A stretch of 32,771 bases of DNA from a virus. The notes below the pieces were generated by a model. The model worked only from the letters and a program-made list of their open reading frames with translations, did no database searches and had not been told where the DNA came from. This document shows, piece after piece, positions 1,680-31,523 of this stretch (positions are counted from its first letter, which is position 1; every line of letters begins with the position of its first letter). Both the position numbers and the translations under genes were made by a program. The stretch lies in IMG/VR virus record IMGVR_UViG_3300044941_000097, positions 1 through 32,771 of that record; one strand, written 5' to 3'.

Positions 1680-2378
1680 ATGTTCACACCCACTCCCGAG
1701 TACCTCAACACGCTGACCCTGCGTCAGGGCATCGGCAGCGGACGACCCGGCGACAGGTGCGCCATCCAGGAACTTCGGGCCTGGCTGGAACTTGATCCAA
1801 CCACTGACGACATTCCGCCCTGCGTGAGTATGGTTATAGGCAGCCTGGTCATAGCCGTGCAGGACGAACGGCCCGAGTGGCGGGAGCAGATTATCCCGCT
1901 GTTGCCCCGGTTGATCGGCTCGGCTGCGAGCCGAGAAACCGAGTTGCAGCGGGTTTTTGCCTGCGCCGATTGGGCGGTTCGTGTGGCAGCGCCCGCAGCT
2001 CTGGACGCAGCGGGCCTGTCTGACCATGCCGAGAGGCTGCGGTCGCTGGCGCAGGTCATCGACGAGCCCACTGCCTACAAGGCCGCCAGTGCTGCCAGGG
2101 CCGTGGCCTATGCTGCCTATGCCGCCGACTATGCAGCCAGGGCCCCCGATGCTGCGGCCTATGCTGCCAGTGTCGCCGTGGCCGCCGATGATGCGGCCAC
2201 TGCTGCCGATGATGCCGTGACCGCCGATGATGCCGATGAGGCCGTAGTGCCTGCCGTTAGGTCGGCCGAGGCCGCCGACTATGTCGTCATGACCGCCGAC
2301 TATGCCTCAATTAACCCGGTGGCGCTGATTGAGGCGCTGCTGGGGATTAATGACGTTGAGGGGGTTGCTAATGTGTGA
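1680..2378 (+). CDS. Ala/Asp/Tyr-repeat protein, unknown function
   Basis: 232 residues from ATG 1680, with AGGAGA just upstream. The N-terminal ~130 residues look globular. Residues ~133-205 are a low-complexity tract of degenerate AAYAADYAA / ADDAATAADD units, encoded by imperfect repeats of gccgatgatgc-like DNA. The last ~20 residues (NPVALIEALLGI) match the tail of the upstream methyltransferase-like gene. Ala-rich AAYAADAA tracts are known in uncharacterised phage and bacterial proteins and probably form helical arrays. Third codon positions here are less G/C-biased than in the structural genes, suggesting a separately acquired accessory segment. Function unknown. Confidence 0.65.
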   Translation: MFTPTPEYLNTLTLRQGIGSGRPGDRCAIQELRAWLELDPTTDDIPPCVSMVIGSLVIAVQDERPEWREQIIPLLPRLIGSAASRETELQRVFACADWAVRVAAPAALDAAGLSDHAERLRSLAQVIDEPTAYKAASAARAVAYAAYAADYAARAPDAAAYAASVAVAADDAATAADDAVTADDADEAVVPAVRSAEAADYVVMTADYASINPVALIEALLGINDVEGVANV

Positions 2379-2847
2379 GTTAGGGGCTGCAACCGACACT
2401 CAGATGCGGGCGATGCAGGTCATAAAGGCGGCACAGGGAATCATCGATGCTTACGAGGAGGGCGGCGTCGTCTCGGCAGCGTGGGACGCCCTAGAGCAAC
2501 TGGCCCGAGGTGATATTGCCGGCGGTATCGGATTAACCGACGCCGGGTACCGCCGGCAGACGATCCGGTCGGAGTTTATGGCGATCATCGCCGATCGGGA
2601 CAAGCGCATCGCCGACCTGGAGCGTCAAAATGCCCGGCTCCTGCACGATCTCAGCGATGCCGTTCATCAGGTTGTCGCCACCGATGGGCGTTGCCAGGAG
2701 CTGGAGGCCGCCTATCAGGAGGCAGGCGAGCATCTGCACACAGCCGACAGCCTCAGCCTGTGCCGGGCAAACCTGGCGGCTGCACAGGCTGAGGTAGAGC
2801 GGTTGAGGAAGGCTCTGATGCTGGCCACGCAGGAGGTAGAGCGATGA
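2371..2847 (+). CDS. Coiled-coil phage protein, unknown function
   Basis: 158 residues. ATG 2371 overlaps the previous stop by eight bases, and GAGGGGG lies just upstream. After a short helical N-terminus (residues ~5-45) the protein has a long heptad-like region (residues ~70-155: RDKRIADLERQNARL, and AAAQAEVERLRKAL near the end), indicating an oligomeric coiled coil. It is translationally coupled to the next gene by ATGA. No enzyme motif is visible. Confidence 0.6.
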   Translation: MCELGAATDTQMRAMQVIKAAQGIIDAYEEGGVVSAAWDALEQLARGDIAGGIGLTDAGYRRQTIRSEFMAIIADRDKRIADLERQNARLLHDLSDAVHQVVATDGRCQELEAAYQEAGEHLHTADSLSLCRANLAAAQAEVERLRKALMLATQEVER

Positions 2848-3131
2848 GCGGCGGATCGTATAACTACGCCTACTGCACGGTGCAGGACATGGCCGAATCC
2901 CTCAGGCGGTCGCGTGACCCTCTGCGTCGGGCGTTCGCTGCCCATCTGTTTCTCGTCGCCACGGCCATGCGTAATGTCGAGTGGGTGGACAGCGGCGATT
3001 ACGGCATTGGTGACGAGGTGGAATCTGTTCGAGCCTGTATCACACCGGCGCAGGAGATGGCTGAGGTTGTCCAGGATGCCATCGTGGCCATTGATACACT
3101 AACCCGCCTCATCGCCGAGGCCGGGCGCTGA
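2844..3131 (+). CDS. MSGGSYNY-type small phage protein
   Basis: 95 residues from ATG 2844, overlapping the previous stop as ATGA. It begins MSGGSYNYAYCTVQDM, an N-terminus I recognise from a widespread group of uncharacterised phage proteins that begin MSGGSY(N/D)Y. The rest is predicted helical, with acidic patches (EWVDSGDYGIGDE) and a closing amphipathic helix. It is part of the lower-GC accessory operon at 1680-3570. The family has no function that I know of. Confidence 0.6.
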   Translation: MSGGSYNYAYCTVQDMAESLRRSRDPLRRAFAAHLFLVATAMRNVEWVDSGDYGIGDEVESVRACITPAQEMAEVVQDAIVAIDTLTRLIAEAGR

Positions 3132-3160
3132 TTGCCAAAATTGAACCAGAACTCAGCCGT

Positions 3161-3316
3161 ATGGCTCTGCTTAAGCGGGTCAGGGGTCTAGATGTCGGCA
3201 AGGTTTTGCCAAATAAGCGGCCTAAGAGCGTTGTGGTCGGCGGGGCTGGTCGAGCAGCAGGCCTCCGCCTGATCCATCCTCCGGAAGAAATTTTGCACCC
3301 TGAAAGGCAGTCATAA
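3161..3316 (+). CDS. Small basic protein (51 aa, or 61 aa from an upstream ATT)
   Basis: The reading frame from 3131 to 3316 is open, fills the whole gap between two genes and ends TAATG, overlapping the next start. ATG 3161 gives 51 residues (starting MALLKRVRGLDVGK). The ten codons upstream (IAKIEPELSR) also read like protein and begin exactly at the previous TGA, so a non-standard ATT start coupled to that stop is possible. The protein is basic and contains GGAGRAAGLRLIHPPEE. Coding is supported by the exact fit between neighbours, not by homology. Confidence 0.45.
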   Translation: MALLKRVRGLDVGKVLPNKRPKSVVVGGAGRAAGLRLIHPPEEILHPERQS

Positions 3317-3573
3317 TGCGGCACAGCGACACACGTTTACCGGCAGACGTGCCAAACGCCGGAAAATCGGCCACTATCGTTATTGGCCAGGATCAGGCCC
3401 AGGTTCACCTGGCGCCGACACACTGCCCGGTCTGCCTCTCCAAACTCCGCACCAAGCGCACCTACCGCCTCGCCGATCACGGCGTCAGGCGGTATCGCTA
3501 TTGCCCGGAGGGCTGCTACTCCGACCGAGCGGCGCTGATCGTCGAAAAGGCGGCCATGCATGAACCTGTTTGA
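3316..3573 (+). CDS. Zinc-ribbon protein, unknown
   Basis: 85 residues from ATG 3316, which shares its A with the previous stop. GAAAGG lies upstream. A four-cysteine ribbon is visible: C37/C40 (CPVC) and C63/C67 (CPEGC), separated by a basic hairpin-like stretch (KLRTKRTYRLADHGVRRYRY). This arrangement fits a small nucleic-acid-binding ribbon. The stop overlaps the following gene by 14 bases. Function unknown. Confidence 0.6.
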   Translation: MRHSDTRLPADVPNAGKSATIVIGQDQAQVHLAPTHCPVCLSKLRTKRTYRLADHGVRRYRYCPEGCYSDRAALIVEKAAMHEPV

Positions 3574-5939: not shown

Positions 5940-7403
5940 ATGTTCGGATCGCAGACCAGCACGCTGCTCGCCCAGGTGCGCAACTCTGCCCCGAGCAAGG
6001 CGGCCCAGTGCGTACTCAAGGCCCAGGCCTGGTACGAAGGCACGCCCTACGACGGCAACGACCCGGACTTCACCCTCGACGCCGACACCCGGCCCAAGGT
6101 GATCGTCCCGATCCCCAAGATGATCGTCGACAAGGCGGCCAGCCTGCTCTTCGGGCGCGCCCCGCAGCTCACTGCCGACGACGACCAGGTGCAGGAGTTC
6201 GTTCAGGAGGTCTGGGGCGCCAACAGGCTGGTGAGCAAGCTGCTCGGCTTCGCTCGGGTCAACGCCTACGCCGGGGCTGGCTGGCTCAAGTTCGTGCACA
6301 ACCCGACGCCCGGCTCCGCCAACCCATGGCCGATCCAGTACTACCACCAGGGCTACGTCGAGCCGGTCTACTCGACGGCCTACCCCGACGAGCTCGAGCG
6401 GATCAAGATCACGTACCGGGTCGAGGGCGCCGACGGGAAGCTCACCTGGTACCGGGAGGAGTGGACGGCCACCGACTACCGGGAATGGACCGACGTCCCG
6501 GTAGTCAGCGGCCAGCTGCCGAACTTCGACAAAATCCCCCCGACCAAGCAGGACGCCAACACCTACGGCGAGATCCCGCTGGTCAACTGGCCGAACCTCT
6601 ACGACCCCGAGCTGGATCCCGGCGCCGGCCGGGGCGACCTGGACGGGCTGTGGTCGCTCTTCCACCGGATCAACATCGTGGCCGATGACGTCGGCCTGGC
6701 GCTGCAGCTCGACGCTAAGGGCGCCTGGCTGGCCTACGGCTTGGGCACCGGGGCTGCCGTCGACCTGACGCCTGGCTCGGTGAACATCGCCAGCGATTCC
6801 GATGCCTTCATCAAGGCGGTCGAGGCGGGCAAGCCTCACCTGGCCGAGGCCCGCGAGTTCCTCAAGGTGCTTGAGCGCTGGGTCTTCAACGCCGCCCGGA
6901 TCGTCTACTTCGATCCGACCGAGATCAGCCTGGGTCAGCTCAGCGGGCTGGCCATCCGACTGCTGTACGGACCCTCGATCGAACTCACCGATGAGAAGCG
7001 CCGCCACGCCGGTGAGGCCATCGAGGAGCTCTTCGAGAAGATCGCACGGGCGGCCAAGAAGCTGGGCGTCGCCTCCAACCTGCCGGCCAAGCCGGACGTG
7101 GAGACCGTCTGGCCTGAGCTGTTCGCCCCCAGCCAGGAAGAGATCGCCCAGGCCCAGACCAACCTGCTCCAAGCCGAGCAGGCCGGTTGGATCACGGCGA
7201 AGGAGGCCCGGCAGAAGGCGGCCCTGCTCCACGGGTTCCGCCACACCGGCGAGCGCGACACCGAGCTGGATGCCGAAGACGAAGGACTGAGCGAGGCCGT
7301 CGATGGCGCCAAGCAAGCGGACGAAGAACTGGACGAAGAGCCTGACCAAGGCCGAGGCCGAGCGCCTGGCGGCCGAGGATCAGGCGGCGTCCAGGCTCGT
7401 TAA
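5940..7403 (+). CDS. Portal protein (SPP1 Gp6-like)
   Basis: 487 residues from ATG 5940, with GAGG upstream. The protein has the features of SPP1-Gp6/Phage_prot_Gp6 portals: an N-terminal arm, PKMIVDKAASLLFGRAP (residues ~59-75), a WAN-type core, a long helix region around GDLDGLWSLFHRINIVADD, and a C-terminal segment of ~120 residues with charged helices. Twelve copies form the channel at the capsid vertex. The last 33 codons overlap the next gene in another frame. The end (GRGRAPGGRGSGGVQAR) looks like low-complexity read-through of that gene's DNA, so the C-terminus may be dispensable. Confidence 0.9.
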   Translation: MFGSQTSTLLAQVRNSAPSKAAQCVLKAQAWYEGTPYDGNDPDFTLDADTRPKVIVPIPKMIVDKAASLLFGRAPQLTADDDQVQEFVQEVWGANRLVSKLLGFARVNAYAGAGWLKFVHNPTPGSANPWPIQYYHQGYVEPVYSTAYPDELERIKITYRVEGADGKLTWYREEWTATDYREWTDVPVVSGQLPNFDKIPPTKQDANTYGEIPLVNWPNLYDPELDPGAGRGDLDGLWSLFHRINIVADDVGLALQLDAKGAWLAYGLGTGAAVDLTPGSVNIASDSDAFIKAVEAGKPHLAEAREFLKVLERWVFNAARIVYFDPTEISLGQLSGLAIRLLYGPSIELTDEKRRHAGEAIEELFEKIARAAKKLGVASNLPAKPDVETVWPELFAPSQEEIAQAQTNLLQAEQAGWITAKEARQKAALLHGFRHTGERDTELDAEDEGLSEAVDGAKQADEELDEEPDQGRGRAPGGRGSGGVQAR

Positions 7404-8739
7404 GGCTCTCGAACAGGCCCGCAAGGAGTGCCGGGCCATCGTCGCCGACGCCTACGCCACCGATGCGGCCAAAGCCCGGGCCCGGGAGACCGGGGCGACG
7501 GTGGGTCGGGCGATCAAGGCGCTCCGGGAAACCGGCGGCAATCTGCTGCAAGCGGAGATCGCCGCCATGGGGCGCTCTGGCCTGAGTGCTGTCACCAAGC
7601 AGGTGAACGCCTTCGACCCGAAGCTCGCCGGCCAGATCGAGGGCTTCAACCTCCTGCCCCTGCAGGCGATGGCCAAGTTCGACCAGGTGGTGCTGCCCAA
7701 GTGGGTCAACCTGATCGACGACGCGGCCAACGCCGTGGCCTTCGCCATCGAGACGGGTATGGCCCGGGGCGAGGGCTACGCCAAGCTGGTCAAACGGGTG
7801 CTCGGCGAGCACGGCACTGGGTCGCTCTACACGACCCAGTACGGCGCTGCCAACCGGCTGGTGCGCCAGGCCGTGAACGAGGCCTATGCCCTATCGGCCC
7901 AAGATACGATCGCCTATGCGGCCTCGCTGAACCCGGGCATCAAGCAGATGTGGATCAGTCGGCTCGTCCGGTCGACGCCCATCTGCGCCGGCCTGCACGG
8001 CCAGGTCGTCGACGTCGGCGCTCCGTTCAAGTGGAACCAGTGGGAGGGCGTTGCCCCGCCGGCGATCGGCGTGGGCGCCGAGCCCAAGTACCACATCTGC
8101 CACTCGACGGTGGTCGCCTGGCACCCCGACTGGGACATCGACGTCAAGCCGCTCACGCCGCAGCAACTGGCCCAGGCGACGGACAAGAAAGGCCCAGGTC
8201 TCAATGCGCCGGAGGGGGCTGGACCCGCTAGACTGCCGCTGCAACAATCGACGCAGCAAGGCGGTGGCATGGGCGGCGGACCAACAGTTCCAGTTCGAGG
8301 ATCTGGCGGCGGCGGTAATGAACCGGTCGACCGGTTGTTGGTTCGCATCGGGAGCGGCGAGCATAAGGTGACGTTTGCCGACAAGGAGCAAATCGTCCGC
8401 CACATCAGCCGAGCAGAGTTTTTCAGCAGGCAGTCGCTGGGGGATCATGCCGCAAAACATGTGCGGCTTGGACACTTCCCGGAGGGCCTGACTGCTGACA
8501 GCTATATGGCTGTGCTTGTGGACGCAACCACAGTTCCCGGCGCCAAGTTAGGGGTATCCGCAAGAGGGACGGCGTACGTTGTGGCTGATACGGCTGAATT
8601 GGCCAGCGAATACGCCCCCAAGGATTACCAGAATATGCTGGTGATTTATGTGCCTGGTCCTGGTAAGATCGTCTCAGGCTATCCGTTTGACGCCGACGGT
8701 GAAATTGAATGGGAAAGGGGCATGCAATGGCTACTGTAG
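7303..8739 (+). CDS. MuF-type minor head protein with C-terminal toxin-like domain
   Basis: 478 residues. Residues ~1-310 are a Mu gpF-like minor head protein: coiled helices, then RLVRQAVNEAYA, LVRSTPICAGLHG and the terminal YHICHSTVVAWHP. These proteins sit at the portal and can be injected with DNA. A Gly/Gln/Ser linker (~313-342, GGGMGGG and GSGGGG) leads to a separate C-terminal domain (~343-478) containing DHAAKHVRLGHF (381-392), GTAYVV and KIVSGYPF. The layout recalls compact nuclease toxins of polymorphic systems (BECR-like folds), but I cannot identify the family from sequence alone. The domain's DNA is AT-richer than the head genes, implying an acquired cassette. The ATG lies inside the portal gene with only a weak ribosome site. 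Confidence 0.8.
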   Translation: MAPSKRTKNWTKSLTKAEAERLAAEDQAASRLVKALEQARKECRAIVADAYATDAAKARARETGATVGRAIKALRETGGNLLQAEIAAMGRSGLSAVTKQVNAFDPKLAGQIEGFNLLPLQAMAKFDQVVLPKWVNLIDDAANAVAFAIETGMARGEGYAKLVKRVLGEHGTGSLYTTQYGAANRLVRQAVNEAYALSAQDTIAYAASLNPGIKQMWISRLVRSTPICAGLHGQVVDVGAPFKWNQWEGVAPPAIGVGAEPKYHICHSTVVAWHPDWDIDVKPLTPQQLAQATDKKGPGLNAPEGAGPARLPLQQSTQQGGGMGGGPTVPVRGSGGGGNEPVDRLLVRIGSGEHKVTFADKEQIVRHISRAEFFSRQSLGDHAAKHVRLGHFPEGLTADSYMAVLVDATTVPGAKLGVSARGTAYVVADTAELASEYAPKDYQNMLVIYVPGPGKIVSGYPFDADGEIEWERGMQWLL

Positions 8740-9020
8740 CGCGCAGCTCCACGTCATCCGAGCGGTTGATTTCTGCTTGTGAGTTTGCCGAAGAGGACGC
8801 CCGCCGGATCGCAAACGATTGGCCGAATATGGCTTTGCTGAGCAAGCAGGTTGCCTTTGCCGAAATTGGGTCGTCCCGGGTCAGCGTCAACCGCCTGCAG
8901 AAGGCCGTCGATACTGGCGACATCCCGGAGGCCTCGAAGGCGAGGGCATTGCGAGCGCTGGATCATGCGAAGCACGCCATCGATGAACTGACCAAGATTG
9001 GCCGATCTGACGGCCTTTAG
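8727..9020 (+). CDS. Possible immunity protein for the MuF toxin domain
   Basis: 97 residues from ATG 8727, chosen because GGAAAGGGG (8712-8720) precedes it at good spacing. An in-frame ATG at 8709 lacks this. It overlaps the last 13 bases of the MuF-toxin gene, so the two are co-translated. The protein is all-helical in appearance (ISACEFAEEDARRIANDW, then NRLQKAVDTG and a closing helix) with no enzyme motif. A small helical protein encoded directly after a toxin domain and sharing its lower GC fits an immunity partner. This is inference from position and composition; no homolog was recognised. Confidence 0.5.
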   Translation: MATVARSSTSSERLISACEFAEEDARRIANDWPNMALLSKQVAFAEIGSSRVSVNRLQKAVDTGDIPEASKARALRALDHAKHAIDELTKIGRSDGL

Positions 9021-9040
9021 TAGTACCACGATCTCGTTAA

Positions 9041-9092
9041 GCCGCCCCTAACCCGGGCGGCTTTCCCATTTGGCCCCTGCTTCGGCGGGGGC
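9041..9092 (+). terminator. Two tandem hairpins after the toxin/immunity pair
   Basis: Hairpin 1 pairs GCCGCCC (9041-9047) with GGGCGGC (9055-9061), followed by TTTCCCATTT. Hairpin 2 pairs GCCCCTGC (9073-9080) with GCGGGGGC (9085-9092) through one G-T pair and a UUCG-type tetraloop, followed by a short T-rich stretch. T-tracts are short, so termination may be partial. Confidence 0.6.
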
Positions 9093-9115
9093 TTTCGCCA
9101 TTTCGGGAGGCTCGC

Positions 9116-9289
9116 ATGCCGACCCACAACCTCAAACCCGGCGCCGTCCGCGCCCAGTGCGGGCAGAAACGGCGCTTTCGCAAGCAGTACCAAGCCGAGC
9201 AAGCCGCCCAATCGATCAAGCGGAACCACGGCGACGAGTTGAGAGCCTACCGGTGCACGGTCTGCAAGGCCTGGCACCTGGGGCATTGA
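9116..9289 (+). CDS. Small zinc-binding phage protein (57 aa)
   Basis: ATG 9116 with GGGAGG upstream opens a 57-residue frame ending at TGA 9289. It contains C15, then a basic middle, then YRCTVCKAWHLGH at the end (C47, C50, H54, H57). A terminal RCxxCxxWHLGH is common in very small phage proteins and forms a compact zinc knuckle. It sits between the hairpins and the scaffold gene, in the head module. The exact role is unknown. Coding support comes from the conserved C-terminal motif and the ribosome site. Confidence 0.65.
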   Translation: MPTHNLKPGAVRAQCGQKRRFRKQYQAEQAAQSIKRNHGDELRAYRCTVCKAWHLGH

Positions 9290-9304
9290 GAAAGGACGAC
9301 CCAC

Positions 9305-9865
9305 ATGCTCCGGAACCGAACCCTCCGCAATGCCGACGCTGGCGCCGCTGGTGCGGCTGGCAACGGTGGCACCGACGCCGGCCAGGGCAGCACTCCGCCC
9401 GCCGGCACCACGCCCCCGGCCGCTGACCCGCCCAAGGATGACCCCAAGGACGCCGAACTGGCCGCAGCCAAGAAGCGGGCCGAGGACCTCGAGGCCAAGG
9501 TGAAGGCCTTCGAGGCGGAGCAGGAGAAGAAGCGCCAGGAGCAGCTCTCGGCTGAGCAGCGGGAGAAGGAGCGCGCCGACAAGGCGGAAGCCGACCTCAA
9601 GCGGGTCCAGCGGGAGAACCTGGTCACCAAGCTGGCCGCCCAAGCCCAGCTCGACCCGGACGTCTGGGACCGGATCCGTGGCGAATCCGAGGAGGAGATC
9701 GCCGCTGACATCAAGTTCTGGCAGGAGAAGCTGGCCAAGCCGGCCGCTCCCGCCGCCCCGGGGAACGCCGGCAAGGGGAAAGCCCCTGACGGCAAAGTGG
9801 ACGTGAAGACCATGTCCCCGGACGAGTTCGCCGCTTACAAGCGGGAGAAGTACGGGGCCCGCTGA
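9305..9865 (+). CDS. Capsid scaffolding protein
   Basis: 186 residues. An N-terminal Gly/Ala/Pro/Thr-rich disordered region (residues ~10-50) leads into a long charged coiled coil (residues ~50-105, many Lys/Glu/Arg/Ala), a short globular part (DPDVWDRIRGESEEEI) and a Pro/Ala/Gly tail ending PDEFAAYKREKYGAR. Charge pattern, length and place directly before the major capsid gene fit phage scaffold proteins, which guide procapsid assembly and are then removed. No protease gene is evident next to it, so the scaffold probably exits intact. Confidence 0.8.
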   Translation: MLRNRTLRNADAGAAGAAGNGGTDAGQGSTPPAGTTPPAADPPKDDPKDAELAAAKKRAEDLEAKVKAFEAEQEKKRQEQLSAEQREKERADKAEADLKRVQRENLVTKLAAQAQLDPDVWDRIRGESEEEIAADIKFWQEKLAKPAAPAAPGNAGKGKAPDGKVDVKTMSPDEFAAYKREKYGAR

Positions 9866-17698: not shown

Positions 17699-18652
17699 AT
17701 GGCCATCGCCAATCCGAGCACCATCGCCAGCCTGCTGATCGACGGCACCGATCTGGGGCTGACGGCACCAGAGACCTGGGAGGGCGGCACCAAGACCGCC
17801 CTCCGGGCCTGGTACTACCGCAAGGGGATCCCGACTCTGATCCAGTCGGGCCGGGTCACCCCCGAGCCGGTGCGGCTGTCGTTTCGGCTCACCGGTCCCG
17901 ATGCACTGCAAAACGCCCTCTACCTGGACGGGCTGCAAAAAACCAAGCGGGATGCGGTGCCCATCGTCTGGGGCCCGATCAGCTTTGCGGCCAAGATCCA
18001 GCAATGCACGTACACGGCGTCGCGCTCCGACGTCGCCGTCACCCTCGAGCTGCTCCCGGTCGACGACCCCAACCCGCAAGGGCAGGCGCAGGCACCGCAG
18101 ATCGAGGTGAACCCGGTCGACCTCCTGTCGGAGATCGGCGACGCCGTCGGCGGCCTGCTTGCCCAGGTGGAGCAGGCCTCGAAGTTCTTCGACAACGCCT
18201 TCCAGGGCATGCGCGACGCCGTCGACAACGCCACGGCCGTCATCGCACGCACCGAGGCGGCCATCACGGGCGTGGCCCAGATCGCCCAGTTGCCGGCGGC
18301 CACCGCCGCCACCCTGGGCGCCGACCTGGTCGACGCCTCTGCCAGGATCCAGAACGGGGCGGCCACGATCGTCACGGCGGCCAACGCCCAGGCGCAACTA
18401 CCGGCCGAAATCGTGTCGACGGTGACCACCCTGGCGACGAGTTCGGCGATCAGCGGGGAGCGCATGGAGTACATCGCCGCCCAGATGACGCCGGCCACGG
18501 TCACCGCCGTGCTCACCGAGGGCCAGACCGCCACCGATATCGCCGAGGCGGCCGGGGTGAGTGTGGCCGACCTGATCGCCGCCAATCCAGACCTGATCCG
18601 GACGCCGTTCACCCCGGGCACCACCGTGGAGGTCCCTGATGCCGGTGCGTGA
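17699..18652 (+). CDS. LysM-containing baseplate/tail protein (XkdP-like)
   Basis: 317 residues. The N-terminal domain (~1-125, beta-rich) resembles tail-proximal baseplate proteins. The middle (~135-255) is a long Ala-rich helical region. The C-terminus (~268-312: TEGQTATDIAEAAGVSVADLIAANPDLIRTPFTPGTTVEVPD) is a LysM domain, a peptidoglycan-binding fold, here with the usual hydrophobic pattern and PGTTVEVP end. The PBSX gene XkdP has this architecture and position after the tape measure. The protein probably links tape measure, tube and hub. Its stop overlaps the next start by 14 bases. Confidence 0.75.
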   Translation: MAIANPSTIASLLIDGTDLGLTAPETWEGGTKTALRAWYYRKGIPTLIQSGRVTPEPVRLSFRLTGPDALQNALYLDGLQKTKRDAVPIVWGPISFAAKIQQCTYTASRSDVAVTLELLPVDDPNPQGQAQAPQIEVNPVDLLSEIGDAVGGLLAQVEQASKFFDNAFQGMRDAVDNATAVIARTEAAITGVAQIAQLPAATAATLGADLVDASARIQNGAATIVTAANAQAQLPAEIVSTVTTLATSSAISGERMEYIAAQMTPATVTAVLTEGQTATDIAEAAGVSVADLIAANPDLIRTPFTPGTTVEVPDAGA

Positions 18653-28357: not shown

Positions 28358-28409
28358 TGGAGGCGGCACCCAGATTCGAACTGGGGGTGAGGATTTTGCA
28401 GACCCCTCC
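28358..28409 (-). other. attP core: 3' half of a tRNA-Cys(GCA) gene
   Basis: On the minus strand the sequence gives an anticodon loop with CTGCAAA (anticodon GCA, 28399-28397), the T arm CCCAG-TTCGAAT-CTGGG, the acceptor strand TGCCGCC, discriminator T and CCA (ending at 28358). A U discriminator is a mark of tRNA-Cys. The matching 5' half (GGCGGCA..., D arm) is absent, so this is not a functional tRNA. Phages that integrate into tRNA genes carry the 3' half to restore the gene. The right boundary of the core is approximate. Confidence 0.85.
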
Positions 28410-28552
28410 GGCCCCACGGCAGGCAACCGCTTGCCCGAAAATGCTTTCTAAGCCGTCTTGTGCTCAGCGGGTTTCAGCGGCTAACCTGGGCTTACCGTTG
28501 CCTATTGGTGATGGCAGGATGCTACCCCGGTTGCTACCCCAGGAACCCCACC

Positions 28553-29740
28553 ATGGCCAAGACCCGTGCCGGTACCGAGTTTACTGCCCGCTGGCTGGAC
28601 CGTGTCCCCCTGCCGGCCAGCGGCCGCGAGGAGCACTGGGACGCGATCGTCCACGGCCTGGGCCTGCGGGTGTCGGCGACGGGGCACAAGTCCTGGTTCG
28701 TCATCTTCCGCCCGGATCCCAAGAAGTCGGCGGTGAGGGTCACGCTCGGCAGCTACCCCGCCATGTCCCTCCTCGAGGCGCGCGATGCCGCCCGGGCGCG
28801 CATCGAGCTGGACCGTGCCCGGGCCTCCGATGACCACGCCGGCCTGACCGTCGAGCAGATGGTGCGGGAGTACTTGGAGACGTGCGCCAAGCCCCAGCTT
28901 CGCCCTAGCAGCCTCAAGCGCATCTCCCAGATCCTGCGCACGGACGTAGTGCCGGCGATGGGCGATCGGCTGGCGGCCGACATCAAGCGGCGGGACGTGA
29001 TCGCCTGGGCGGAGCGGATCAAGGAGCGGGGCGCACCCGTCCAGGCCAACCGGGCCATCGCCGTGCTGCGACGGGTCTACAACTGGGCCATCTCCAAGGA
29101 CATGATCGAGGTGAACCCCTGCGCCCAGGTCAAGAAGCCGGCGCAGGAGTCCTATCGGGATCGGGTGCTCACCGAGGGCGAGCTCCGCGCCGTCTGGCGC
29201 TACCTCGACCAGGAGGAGCCGACCATCGCCGCCCTCTTCCGCCTGCAGATCCTGACCGGCCAGCGCGGCGGCGAGGTGCGCAGCATGCGCTGGGAGGACG
29301 TCGACCTGCGCACGTCGGTCTGGACCATCCCCGCCGCCCAGTCCAAGAACCGGCTGGCCCACCGGGTGCCCCTGACGGCGCCGGCGATGGCGATCCTCGA
29401 AGGCCTCGGCGCTTCGCCCGATTCGAAGGGACCGGTTATTCCCGGCGGCAAGCCGCACAAGCGCCCGGAGCTCGCAGGCGAGGTCCCGCTATTCAACCCG
29501 TACAAGGCCGTCGAGCGGGTGCGGCAAGGCAGCGGAGTCGATTTCGTTCCCCACGACCTGCGCCGGACGGTGGCCAGCTACATGGCCCAGCTCGAGATCA
29601 GCGAGGAGACGATCGGCAAGGTGCTGAACCACGCACCGGCGACCATCACCTCGCAGCGGTATATCCGCCACGGCTACGACAAGCAGAAACGCGAAGCGCT
29701 CGACCTGTGGGCCGAGCGCCTGATGGCCGTCGTGGATTAG
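28553..29740 (+). CDS. int: Tyrosine-recombinase integrase
   Basis: 395 residues from ATG 28553. An upstream in-frame start at 28460 would translate the att-arm repeats and is not used. The N-terminus (FTARWLDRVPLPASGREEHWDAIVHGLGLRVSATGHKSWFVIFR) is a P4-type arm-binding domain, followed by a SAM-like core-binding domain (LTVEQMVREYLETCAKPQLRPSSL). The catalytic residues are R238 (LTGQRGGEVRS), H334 and R337 (PHDLRRT), H360 (LNHAP) and probable nucleophile Y370 (RYIRHGY). It integrates the phage at the tRNA-Cys site 150 bases upstream. Confidence 0.92.
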   Translation: MAKTRAGTEFTARWLDRVPLPASGREEHWDAIVHGLGLRVSATGHKSWFVIFRPDPKKSAVRVTLGSYPAMSLLEARDAARARIELDRARASDDHAGLTVEQMVREYLETCAKPQLRPSSLKRISQILRTDVVPAMGDRLAADIKRRDVIAWAERIKERGAPVQANRAIAVLRRVYNWAISKDMIEVNPCAQVKKPAQESYRDRVLTEGELRAVWRYLDQEEPTIAALFRLQILTGQRGGEVRSMRWEDVDLRTSVWTIPAAQSKNRLAHRVPLTAPAMAILEGLGASPDSKGPVIPGGKPHKRPELAGEVPLFNPYKAVERVRQGSGVDFVPHDLRRTVASYMAQLEISEETIGKVLNHAPATITSQRYIRHGYDKQKREALDLWAERLMAVVD

Positions 29741-30117
29741 GTCCCGTGCTGGGCGACGACAGTATTGATCCAGGCATTCAGGCTGACGCCCTCCCGGTCG
29801 GCCCGGGCCGTCACATCCCGATGAAGAGCCTTAGGCATCCGCAAGGCGAACTTGCCTGAGAAGCCGGCTTCTGGTGCAGGCTCCGGAATCTCCGCACCAT
29901 CTTCGATCGCATCTTCGATCCAGAGTTCGAGGCTGGTCTTGACCGACTCGATCGCCGCTGTCGGTGTGTCGCCACCGCCGCTGATCCGAGGGACTTCAGC
30001 GACCCGCGCCGCCCAATACGGGCCGTCAGCGTTTTCCGCCGGCCGCACCTGATAGGTGTAGGGCAGGCTCATGTAGTAGGCCAGATCCTTTGCCCGCTGA
30101 GGCGTCTTCGTAGCCAT
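29737..30117 (-). CDS. hicB: HicB antitoxin
   Basis: 126 residues on the minus strand, start at 30117 with GGGAGGGG upstream. An N-terminal part with PYTYQVRPAENADGPYWAARVAEVPRISGGGDTPTAAIESVKTSLELWIEDA is the degenerate RNase-H-like HicB fold. The C-terminus (KFALRMPKALHRDVTARADREGVSLNAWINTVVAQ) is a ribbon-helix-helix DNA-binding domain. HicB blocks HicA and represses the operon. It is the second gene of the pair, 11 bases after hicA, and its end overlaps the integrase stop in the opposite direction. Confidence 0.88.
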   Translation of the reverse strand: MATKTPQRAKDLAYYMSLPYTYQVRPAENADGPYWAARVAEVPRISGGGDTPTAAIESVKTSLELWIEDAIEDGAEIPEPAPEAGFSGKFALRMPKALHRDVTARADREGVSLNAWINTVVAQHGT

Positions 30118-30128
30118 GTTCCCCTCCC

Positions 30129-30371
30129 TTACTCGCCGTCCAAAGCGGCGAGGCAATCCTTCACCAAGTCCTCGTGAGCGTGCTTCTTGCCGCCGTGGGG
30201 GATAACACCGATGATCGTCGGCTGGCCAGCCTTCTTGAACTTGCAGTGGCTGCCGCCCTTGGCGGTCTTCAGATCCCAACCGAAGTGCGTCATGACCGTG
30301 GCCAGGTCATCAAAGCGAACCGCCTTGGGATTGTTGCGGATCCCGGCGATCAGCTTCTCGATCTTGGCCAT
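30129..30371 (-). CDS. hicA: HicA mRNA-interferase toxin
   Basis: 80 residues, minus strand, start 30371 with GGGGAGG upstream. It has the HicA dsRBD-like pattern: a first helix (IEKLIAGIRNNP), then AKGGSHCKF with catalytic His42, a strand (PTIIGVIPHGG) and a final helix (HEDLVKDCLAAL). HicA toxins cut mRNA and are neutralised by HicB. In a phage this module can stabilise lysogeny or act in defence. An inverted repeat in the promoter region suggests autoregulation. Confidence 0.85.
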   Translation of the reverse strand: MAKIEKLIAGIRNNPKAVRFDDLATVMTHFGWDLKTAKGGSHCKFKKAGQPTIIGVIPHGGKKHAHEDLVKDCLAALDGE

Positions 30372-30511: not shown

Positions 30512-30739
30512 TCACGGCTTTGGCGCACCCTCCATCGACCAGGTGTCATCCTCCTGCAGGCGCTTCAGCTCCTGGACGAGCAGGCGGCCCAGCGCATCGA
30601 GGGCCGGGACTCCTTTGAGGTTCCGAAGCTGACCAGCGATCTGCCACATGATACGCCGGTCGAGGAACAACTCGATCCCCTGGCCTCGATGACGACGGAC
30701 GACTCGGAACGGGCGTGCTTTCATGCTGGCAACCTTCAT
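30512..30739 (-). CDS. Small unknown protein of the lysogenic region
   Basis: 75 residues, minus strand, start 30739 (an alternative ATG at 30724 gives 70 residues). The upstream DNA is AT-rich (30740-30785), as in a promoter, but without a good ribosome site. The N-terminus is strongly basic (MKARPFRVVRRHRGQGIELFLDRR), and the rest is an amphipathic helix (VPALDALGRLLVQELKRLQED). No domain is recognised. It may be a regulator or accessory gene expressed in lysogens. Confidence 0.45.
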   Translation of the reverse strand: MKVASMKARPFRVVRRHRGQGIELFLDRRIMWQIAGQLRNLKGVPALDALGRLLVQELKRLQEDDTWSMEGAPKP

Positions 30740-30853
30740 ACTGGAAATTGTTTTCGATTATGAGGATAGCAAGGGGCCTGTGATCATTTCTAGTGCAGGG
30801 ACGCCGCGCAGGCACGGTGACCTGGGCAGAGAGGTTTGAGGCGAAGCTGACCC

Positions 30854-31237
30854 TTATTTGCCGAGGAAGATCTGGGCGACGAGGACGATAATGCCAGCCA
30901 GGGCACTGATGCTCACGCCTTTGAGCCAGCCCATGTCCGTCTCAAGGCCATGGACGCGACGGTCGATCGCATTGAGGCGTTCGTCCATCTTCTCCATACG
31001 GCCATCCATTTTGTCCAGCCGCTTGAAAATGTCCTCGCACACGCTGAGGATGCGGTCAAAGCGGCTGTCGATCCGCTGCAGGGCGGCATCGAAGACCGCT
31101 GTCGTCACGTAGTCGGGTGGCATGGGCGGGTCGCCTCCTCCGCCCTTGATCGTAGCATCATCAGCCTTGGGATCTGCCGCAATGGCGTCAAACGTGCCCT
31201 GTAGGAGGGCCCACTTCTCAGGGAGACTGCTGGGCAT
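30854..31237 (-). CDS. Coiled-coil protein with C-terminal membrane anchor
   Basis: 127 residues from 31237, or 89 residues from a later ATG at 31123 with a much better ribosome site (GGAGGAGG). A heptad region (FDRILSVCEDIFKRLDKMDGRMEKMDERLNAIDRRVHGLE) precedes a terminal hydrophobic helix (ISALAGIIVLVAQIFLGK). It should be anchored in the cytoplasmic membrane with the coil in the cytoplasm. It is co-transcribed downstream of the repressor, so it is likely made in lysogens, where membrane proteins often mediate superinfection exclusion (inference). XhlA-type proteins look similar. Confidence 0.55.
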   Translation of the reverse strand: MPSSLPEKWALLQGTFDAIAADPKADDATIKGGGGDPPMPPDYVTTAVFDAALQRIDSRFDRILSVCEDIFKRLDKMDGRMEKMDERLNAIDRRVHGLETDMGWLKGVSISALAGIIVLVAQIFLGK

Positions 31238-31523
31238 CGGCGATCTTCTTTTCGACGTACTCAGTCACTTGGCGGTGCACGGCCTGATTGTTCTTCCTGA
31301 ACAGTTCGTAGATCGACCCGATCAGGGCCATGGCGTTTGCGGCTGCCACCTTTTCCGGGTGGGCCTGGTTGTCAGTGATTGCCTGTAGCGTCAGCTTCCG
31401 CAGCTGGTTGTAGTTCTCGTTGATGACCTCGGCAATCTCGGCGTCACTTAAGCCGAAATACGGCAAATCCTCGCCGGCGCCTTGAGGATCTTCGCCACTC
31501 GGGTCTGCCACCGTCCAGCTCAT
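31218..31523 (-). CDS. Helical protein of the repressor operon, unknown
   Basis: 101 residues, minus strand. Its ATG (31523-31521) overlaps the repressor stop as ATGA, and its end overlaps the next gene by 20 bases. An acidic N-terminus (DPSGEDPQGAGEDLPYFGLSDAEIAEVINENY) is followed by two long helices (KLTLQAITDNQAHPEKVAAANAMALIGSIYELFRKNNQ; VTEYVEKKIADAQ). No family is recognised. Tight coupling to the repressor suggests expression in lysogens, perhaps as an exclusion or regulatory protein. Confidence 0.5.
   Translation of the reverse strand: MSWTVADPSGEDPQGAGEDLPYFGLSDAEIAEVINENYNQLRKLTLQAITDNQAHPEKVAAANAMALIGSIYELFRKNNQAVHRQVTEYVEKKIADAQQSP

Follow-up and report, generated by a model that had tools for sequence, protein, structure and literature searches.

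Toxins fused to the MuF minor head proteins of phages have already been described (PMC5576092, in the part consulted). In that survey, an ORF of less than 150 aa follows 89.4% of 191 MuF toxin genes, as against 25.5% of 952 short MuF genes, and the same part leaves open whether those extensions of proteobacterial MuF proteins that lack known domains are toxins. The locus described here provides a clean test case for that question: a sharply bounded cassette in which an orphan domain is accompanied by a partner gene. To judge from its architecture and base composition and from the same gene slot in other phages, it is quite probably a MuF polymorphic toxin-immunity cassette in a temperate, contractile-tailed phage, with a candidate toxin and a putative immunity gene. 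What is new is the C-terminal domain, which could not be placed and resembled nothing in the collections searched.

The window, meaning the whole stretch of DNA analysed (32,771 bases), is identical with the whole virus record. Recognised phage parts are TerL, portal, MuF, major head protein, tail sheath, tape measure, baseplate proteins, an integrase, and an HTH/S24 repressor; the head cluster has the gene order terL, portal, MuF, major head protein. The integrase and repressor genes, together with those for the sheath and baseplate, indicate that the phage is temperate and has a contractile tail. The window TerL is 40–42% identical to Streptomyces phage terminases (among the 20 matches listed). 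For the integrase, 18 of the 20 matches listed from plasmids (27–32% identity) carry names that we take to be those of Alphaproteobacteria, and the genera most often seen among all 60 plasmid records are Klebsiella (11) and Citrobacter (9). These integrase matches give a weak hint of a host in the Pseudomonadota. A HicA-HicB toxin-antitoxin pair on the minus strand adjoins the integrase (window 29737–30371; HicB PF05534, E = 2.4e-13; HicA PF07927, E = 1.9e-6), and a tRNA-Cys gene, also on the minus strand and a possible attachment site, is located directly before the integrase gene (window 28358–29740).

The features of the locus are as follows, with GC3 denoting the GC content at third codon positions.

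7303..8739, plus strand: MuF minor head protein gene with a C-terminal extension, 478 aa (phrog_115, phmmer)
7303..8187, plus strand: MuF head part, GC3 0.91 as in the adjoining structural genes (change point at 8188)
8188..8328, plus strand: linker, Gly-rich towards its end, low GC3 (from the sequence; GC3 0.47 over 8227–8328)
8329..8736, plus strand: orphan C-terminal domain, 136 aa, probable toxin (GC3 0.63; slot comparison; without family match)
8446..8460, plus strand: HAAKH, domain residues 40–44, candidate catalytic His/Lys (by likeness to BECR signatures in the consulted part of PMC3482391)
8674..8685, plus strand: SGYP, domain residues 116–119, candidate strand-4 Ser of a BECR-like active site
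8727..9020, plus strand: small gene, 97 aa, probable immunity gene (ORF, GC3 0.69; alternative start at 8709, 103 aa)
9039..9063, plus strand: strong hairpin directly behind the small gene, lacking a clear T run (the scan did not call a terminator)
about 9072–9092: second strong hairpin, back-to-back with the first, without a clear T run (by eye)

The PHROG minor head protein family phrog_115 matches the window MuF at E = 6.9e-9, and phmmer recovers it at E = 7.9e-7 when the MuF N-terminus of phage OM735687 is the query. We rely on these two values because the MuF model of the comparison set, which gives E = 1.3e-16, is not independent, the window having been part of its building set. The PF04233 match at residues 145–243 (E = 0.001) is below the cut-off. 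After approximately residue 295, the protein continues into the linker and then the 136-residue domain (residues 343–478), so that an initial, sequence-only reading of this DNA, which had proposed a MuF head domain, a Gly-rich linker, and a C-terminal domain of ~135 residues, is borne out by the 478-aa ORF.

Base composition changes abruptly within the MuF gene. GC3 drops from 0.89 in the MuF N-part to 0.47 in the linker (34 codons, 8227–8328), stands at 0.63 for the domain and 0.69 for the small gene, and returns to 0.88 in the next gene. The change point is at codon 296 (base 8188), with GC3 of 0.91 before and 0.60 after, and its 2dlogL of 65.5 compares with a maximum of 14.8 in 500 permutations; the break exceeds chance. 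In 136-codon windows of the neighboring head and tail genes (n = 1579, overlapping, from 11 stretches of which one is the MuF head part and one was too short for any window), GC3 has a mean of 0.917 (sd 0.025) and a minimum of 0.816. Both the sliding GC3 and the change point thus confirm the sequence-only claim that the domain and the small gene use more A/T at third positions than the flanking head genes. The domain and the small gene have their lowest GC at codon position 2, the same as their coding neighbors; the 34-codon linker has its lowest GC at position 3. Several early and lysogeny genes of the window also have a GC3 of only 0.72–0.85, and therefore the contrast of the cassette is with the surrounding structural genes. 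The listed ORF 18004–18636, with a GC3 of 0.51, is probably in the wrong frame. Small genes at window 2329–3570 and 30512–31523 have a GC3 of 0.72–0.76, below that of the structural genes.

The same slot was compared in phages found through TerL, namely the best 80 of 99 relatives from viral contigs and 23 from genomes (all with Bacillota-type titles), with phage L113 (OM735687.1), recorded as infecting Stenotrophomonas, added from outside the terminase scans through a MuF tblastn search. These phages are only distantly related to that of the window: one of their relatives finds the window MuF at the phmmer E-value given above. The searches yielded no close relative of the window itself. The MuF model returned 85 ORF rows, of which 81 were kept, in 54 clusters; the rows dropped were the very long ORFs L036 and L091 and single fragments of L081 and L096. 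Pfam searches with the 27 distinct extensions identified DUF6883 in seven (function unknown), Ntox50 in three, ADPrib_exo_Tox in one, and Toxin-deaminase in one, and NCBIfam searches found XopAD-type models in six. XopAD effectors hold RelA/SpoT domains, and fusions of MuF with RelA/SpoT are named in the consulted part of PMC3482391. Three further extensions (L033, L087, and L113) contain HExxH by eye, and about six of the 27, as assigned from the sequences, matched nothing. Of 27 pairs sharing at least 70% identity in the MuF N-terminus, 23 gave no match at E ≤ 1 between their distal C-termini (the pairs are not independent). To judge from these families and pairs, the slot in related phages shows the pattern of exchangeable toxin cassettes. 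The toxin reading for the window follows from the toxin-type domains held by this slot elsewhere, and the domain's own sequence is not its basis. Single-linkage clustering placed 23 of 28 extensions in one cluster because they share a first segment of ~105 residues (by eye), which the window extension lacks.

Small genes follow most of the extended MuF genes. An ORF of 45–150 aa within about –60 to +25 bases (ORFs taken from the first ATG/GTG/TTG) is located directly behind MuF in 20 of 24 complete extended representatives (extension of at least 150 residues; the incomplete L019, L034, and L101 were left out, as was the window) versus 8 of 20 short ones (extension of less than 100 residues; Fisher p = 0.0046). 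The four misses include L113, whose locus stops at the MuF gene and so cannot be scored, and L085, whose 77-aa ORF at exactly –60 was excluded, and one of the eight short positives (L081) is a broken MuF frame with its own remainder as the ‘next ORF’. The L113 gene (5548–7356) encodes a MuF protein with an HExxH-type C-terminus, and L112, which has the same MuF sequence, has a 76-aa gene directly behind. The MuF N-part of L113 has a GC3 of only 0.33, which is odd for a phage of a GC-rich host.

The composition break is also found in the comparison set. For 26 of the 27 relatives with an extension, GC3 is lower over the last 130 codons than in the MuF head part (mean –0.136), versus 19 of 24 for TerL (mean –0.042) and 7 of 21 for portals (mean +0.012), these being the numbers of the 27 loci for which each control was available; the Mann-Whitney p is 4e-5 against TerL and 8e-7 against portals. 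The small genes of the relatives are lower in all 20 cases (mean –0.118). The window falls by 0.28 from MuF head part to extension, and its AT-richness there is therefore what extended MuF genes of the comparison set usually display. To judge from TerL, some of the effect may be general.

The extension could alternatively be a non-toxic virion accessory, such as a head decoration, a DNA-ejection factor, or a host-take-over factor, comparable to the unexplained extensions of proteobacterial MuF proteins, with the small gene as an accessory late gene. Many MuF extensions in phages of Proteobacteria lack known domains, and their status as toxins is left open in the consulted part of PMC5576092; the window domain matches no toxin family. 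Against this, the composition breaks abruptly and the small gene has a similarly low GC3, whereas a structural part conserved within the lineage should presumably share the GC3 of its neighbors; moreover, toxin families occupy the slot in related phages. We regard a non-toxic accessory as improbable. The toxin-fusion and immunity pair proposed by the sequence-only reading is partly supported, by the slot comparison, with its swapped toxin C-termini and small genes, and by the GC3 drop; the domain itself has provided no toxin family match.

Searches with the domain were extensive. No family in Pfam, NCBIfam, PHROG, or PADLOC matched the whole domain, and a zinc-finger match to one half-domain alone (E = 0.23) was taken as chance. 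Nothing among the PDB sequences was better than E = 0.68. The structure prediction of residues 343–478 suggested earlier was run with AlphaFold2 on the single sequence and yielded no usable fold (mean pLDDT 36.9). This low-confidence model has a helix at residues 34–44 and strands at 73–76, 82–85, 103–108, and 114–120, the last including S116, as well as further strands. For comparison, a BECR fold consists of a helix and four strands, and its active-site S/T lies in the fourth.

Relatives of the domain were not found in viral contigs (peptide scans and degenerate DNA motifs), in genome contigs (scan), in 398 Bacillota-side genomes, or by tblastn in phages and plasmids at E ≤ 1 and E ≤ 10, where only weak rows of E 1 to 9 appeared. 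Several candidates were rejected by eye: L001 sits in an FtsK-like ORF, and L108–L110 (E 0.07–0.19) are an SRP-type GTPase, a histidine kinase, and a DnaN-like clamp. The 19 DNA-motif matches are in frames of 4 to 130 residues with little likeness beyond the motif (best phmmer E 0.001, in a pre-selected set). In Smith-Waterman alignments of the domain with the 27 extensions, the best Z was 2.15 (L033; reached in 4.5% of shuffles), which is the best of 27 tries.

The whole MuF protein had no match at E ≤ 1e-4 in 398 genomes of the phylum of E. coli, and a MuF N-terminal scan of viral contigs found none. It matched one of 385 genomes of one presumed alphaproteobacterial class (E ≤ 1e-3) and three of 40 of one order, the same genome included; the label is based on a GcrA match in the genome at the centre of that class. 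The hits to the MuF protein are all confined to its head part. The three frames (299, 299, and 360 residues; E 4.8e-7 to 9.2e-4) are without the window domain: L134 and L136 stop shortly behind the head part, whereas L137 has a short tail. Homologs of the domain and its partner serving as ordinary head proteins, which the sequence-only reading had named as evidence against a toxin, were looked for and did not appear, but only because no homologs of the two were found.

The small gene overlaps the end of the MuF gene by 13 bases (8727–8739), and this 97-codon ORF directly behind MuF agrees with what had been noticed at the outset. By eye, ATG 8727 is the better start, with the ribosome-binding stretch GGGAAAGGGG six bases upstream; starting from the in-frame alternative ATG 8709, the protein would have 103 aa and the overlap would be 31 bases. 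AlphaFold2 on the single sequence predicts three helices (mean pLDDT 60.9; 74–80 over residues 51–90), which makes the earlier description as helical likely rather than certain. The only family matches are sub-threshold and of coiled-coil type (SCAB_CC, E = 0.0077; LIC11966, E = 0.016). No relatives were found in viral contigs, and the best values were E 0.9 in phages, 0.3 in plasmids, 1.1 among PDB sequences, and 2.6 in a Foldseek search with the weak model, which gave no fold match.

Because of its low GC3, its overlap, and its position, the small gene is the natural and probable immunity candidate. It could also be a late gene with an unrelated role, or the ORF could be spurious, with immunity encoded elsewhere or unneeded. 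A small ORF is also directly behind the eight short MuF genes counted above, the broken frame among them, and no sigma-70-like promoter was found in 7200–9400 (0.3 expected in shuffles; other promoter types are outside the scan), so that there is no support for the small gene being expressed on its own in a lysogen. However, the gene has a coding-like position pattern and a GC3 nearly as low as that of the domain, it overlaps MuF and has a ribosome-binding stretch, and such a gene is found behind 20 of 24 extended MuF genes. We therefore consider it unlikely that the small gene is something other than an immunity gene.

The activity of the candidate toxin can be addressed through the order of residues in the domain, which by eye is H40, K43-H44, and S116-x-x-P119. 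In the BECR clades, the signatures are ‘H, KH’ with S/T in the C-terminal strand for Ntox35 and ‘[RK]H, [KR], [ST]xxP’ for Ntox41 (PMC3482391, in the part consulted), and the window domain is alike in its order of H, [RK]H, and [ST]xxP. The pattern [RK]H-x(55-90)-[ST]xxP, which is present in the domain but was chosen after seeing the sequence, also occurs in 3.4% of 20000 shuffles and in 6 of 1166 real pieces; with the extra His, likewise chosen afterwards, it occurs in 0.27% of shuffles. A likeness to colicin D (KH ... SGW) suggested a further comparison. The domain resembles the colicin D tRNase domain by eye in the order from KH to SG(Y/W) and in rough spacing. The residues listed for colicin D are K607, K608, H611, D614, and S677 (PMC3482391, in the part consulted); the His and Ser can be placed by eye in the window domain, whereas the Lys pair and the Asp (Lys608, Asp614) cannot. 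Two members of the colicin D family from one genome score no higher than shuffles when aligned with the domain (Z –0.94 and 0.04), and neither PF11429 (Colicin_D) nor PF15534 (Ntox35) matches the window at E ≤ 10. Comparison was thus negative for colicin D and Ntox35, and what is left are the BECR-like residues seen by eye. Given these negative tests, a BECR RNase is a working guess, without a claim of membership. A metal-independent RNase of BECR type is the likeliest single activity, and a doubtful one.

A toxin of another class, such as an ADP-ribosyltransferase, a peptidase, a deaminase, or a wholly new fold, has a chance only a little short of even. Several enzyme classes occupy the slot in relatives, the colicin D and Ntox35 tests are negative, and the pI of the domain is acidic (5.7, with 6.7 for the partner). 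Nuclease toxins are usually basic and their partners acidic, and the window pair differs from this. On the other side, families of these classes gave no match to the window domain, which also has no HExxH in its sequence.

MuF proteins are known to be incorporated into phage heads, and the MuF part of the window protein would be built into the head in the same way. By analogy, the linker and the 136-residue domain would ride on MuF, pass into the next cell together with the DNA, and act in its cytoplasm. The 97-residue protein encoded by the overlapping gene would bind and block the domain in lysogens as well as in producing cells. If the domain is an RNase, its activity may involve the His/Lys of HAAKH and the Ser of SGYP. 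In its fullest form, the proposal is that a contractile-tailed, perhaps proteobacterial phage carries a new family of phage-delivered BECR-like RNase toxin (H40/KH43-44/S116) and a new three-helix immunity protein, that the unexplained MuF extensions include real toxins, and that a GC3 drop within MuF marks such cassettes across phyla; taken together, this is tentative and rather unlikely. Should the GC3 drop inside MuF genes prove general, it would offer a homology-free way to find such cassettes.

Compared with the described MuF polymorphic toxins (PMC5576092, in the part consulted), the locus is alike in its MuF gene within the head cluster, its C-terminal extension, the small gene behind, and the temperate phage. 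It differs in that the described systems are mostly from phages of Firmicutes and have recognised toxin domains, whereas the window domain is unplaced and the host is perhaps proteobacterial, which is a weak inference. The extension Ct_MAD of proteobacterial MuF proteins (PMC5576092, in the part consulted) is similar in being an extension without known function in temperate phages. The Apk2 MuF toxins with IapK immunity (PMC12226406) share with the window a MuF N-terminus, a C-terminal extension, and an immunity gene directly downstream, which in the window is putative; Apk2 is a (p)ppApp synthetase with two immunity genes, whereas no such domain was matched in the window.
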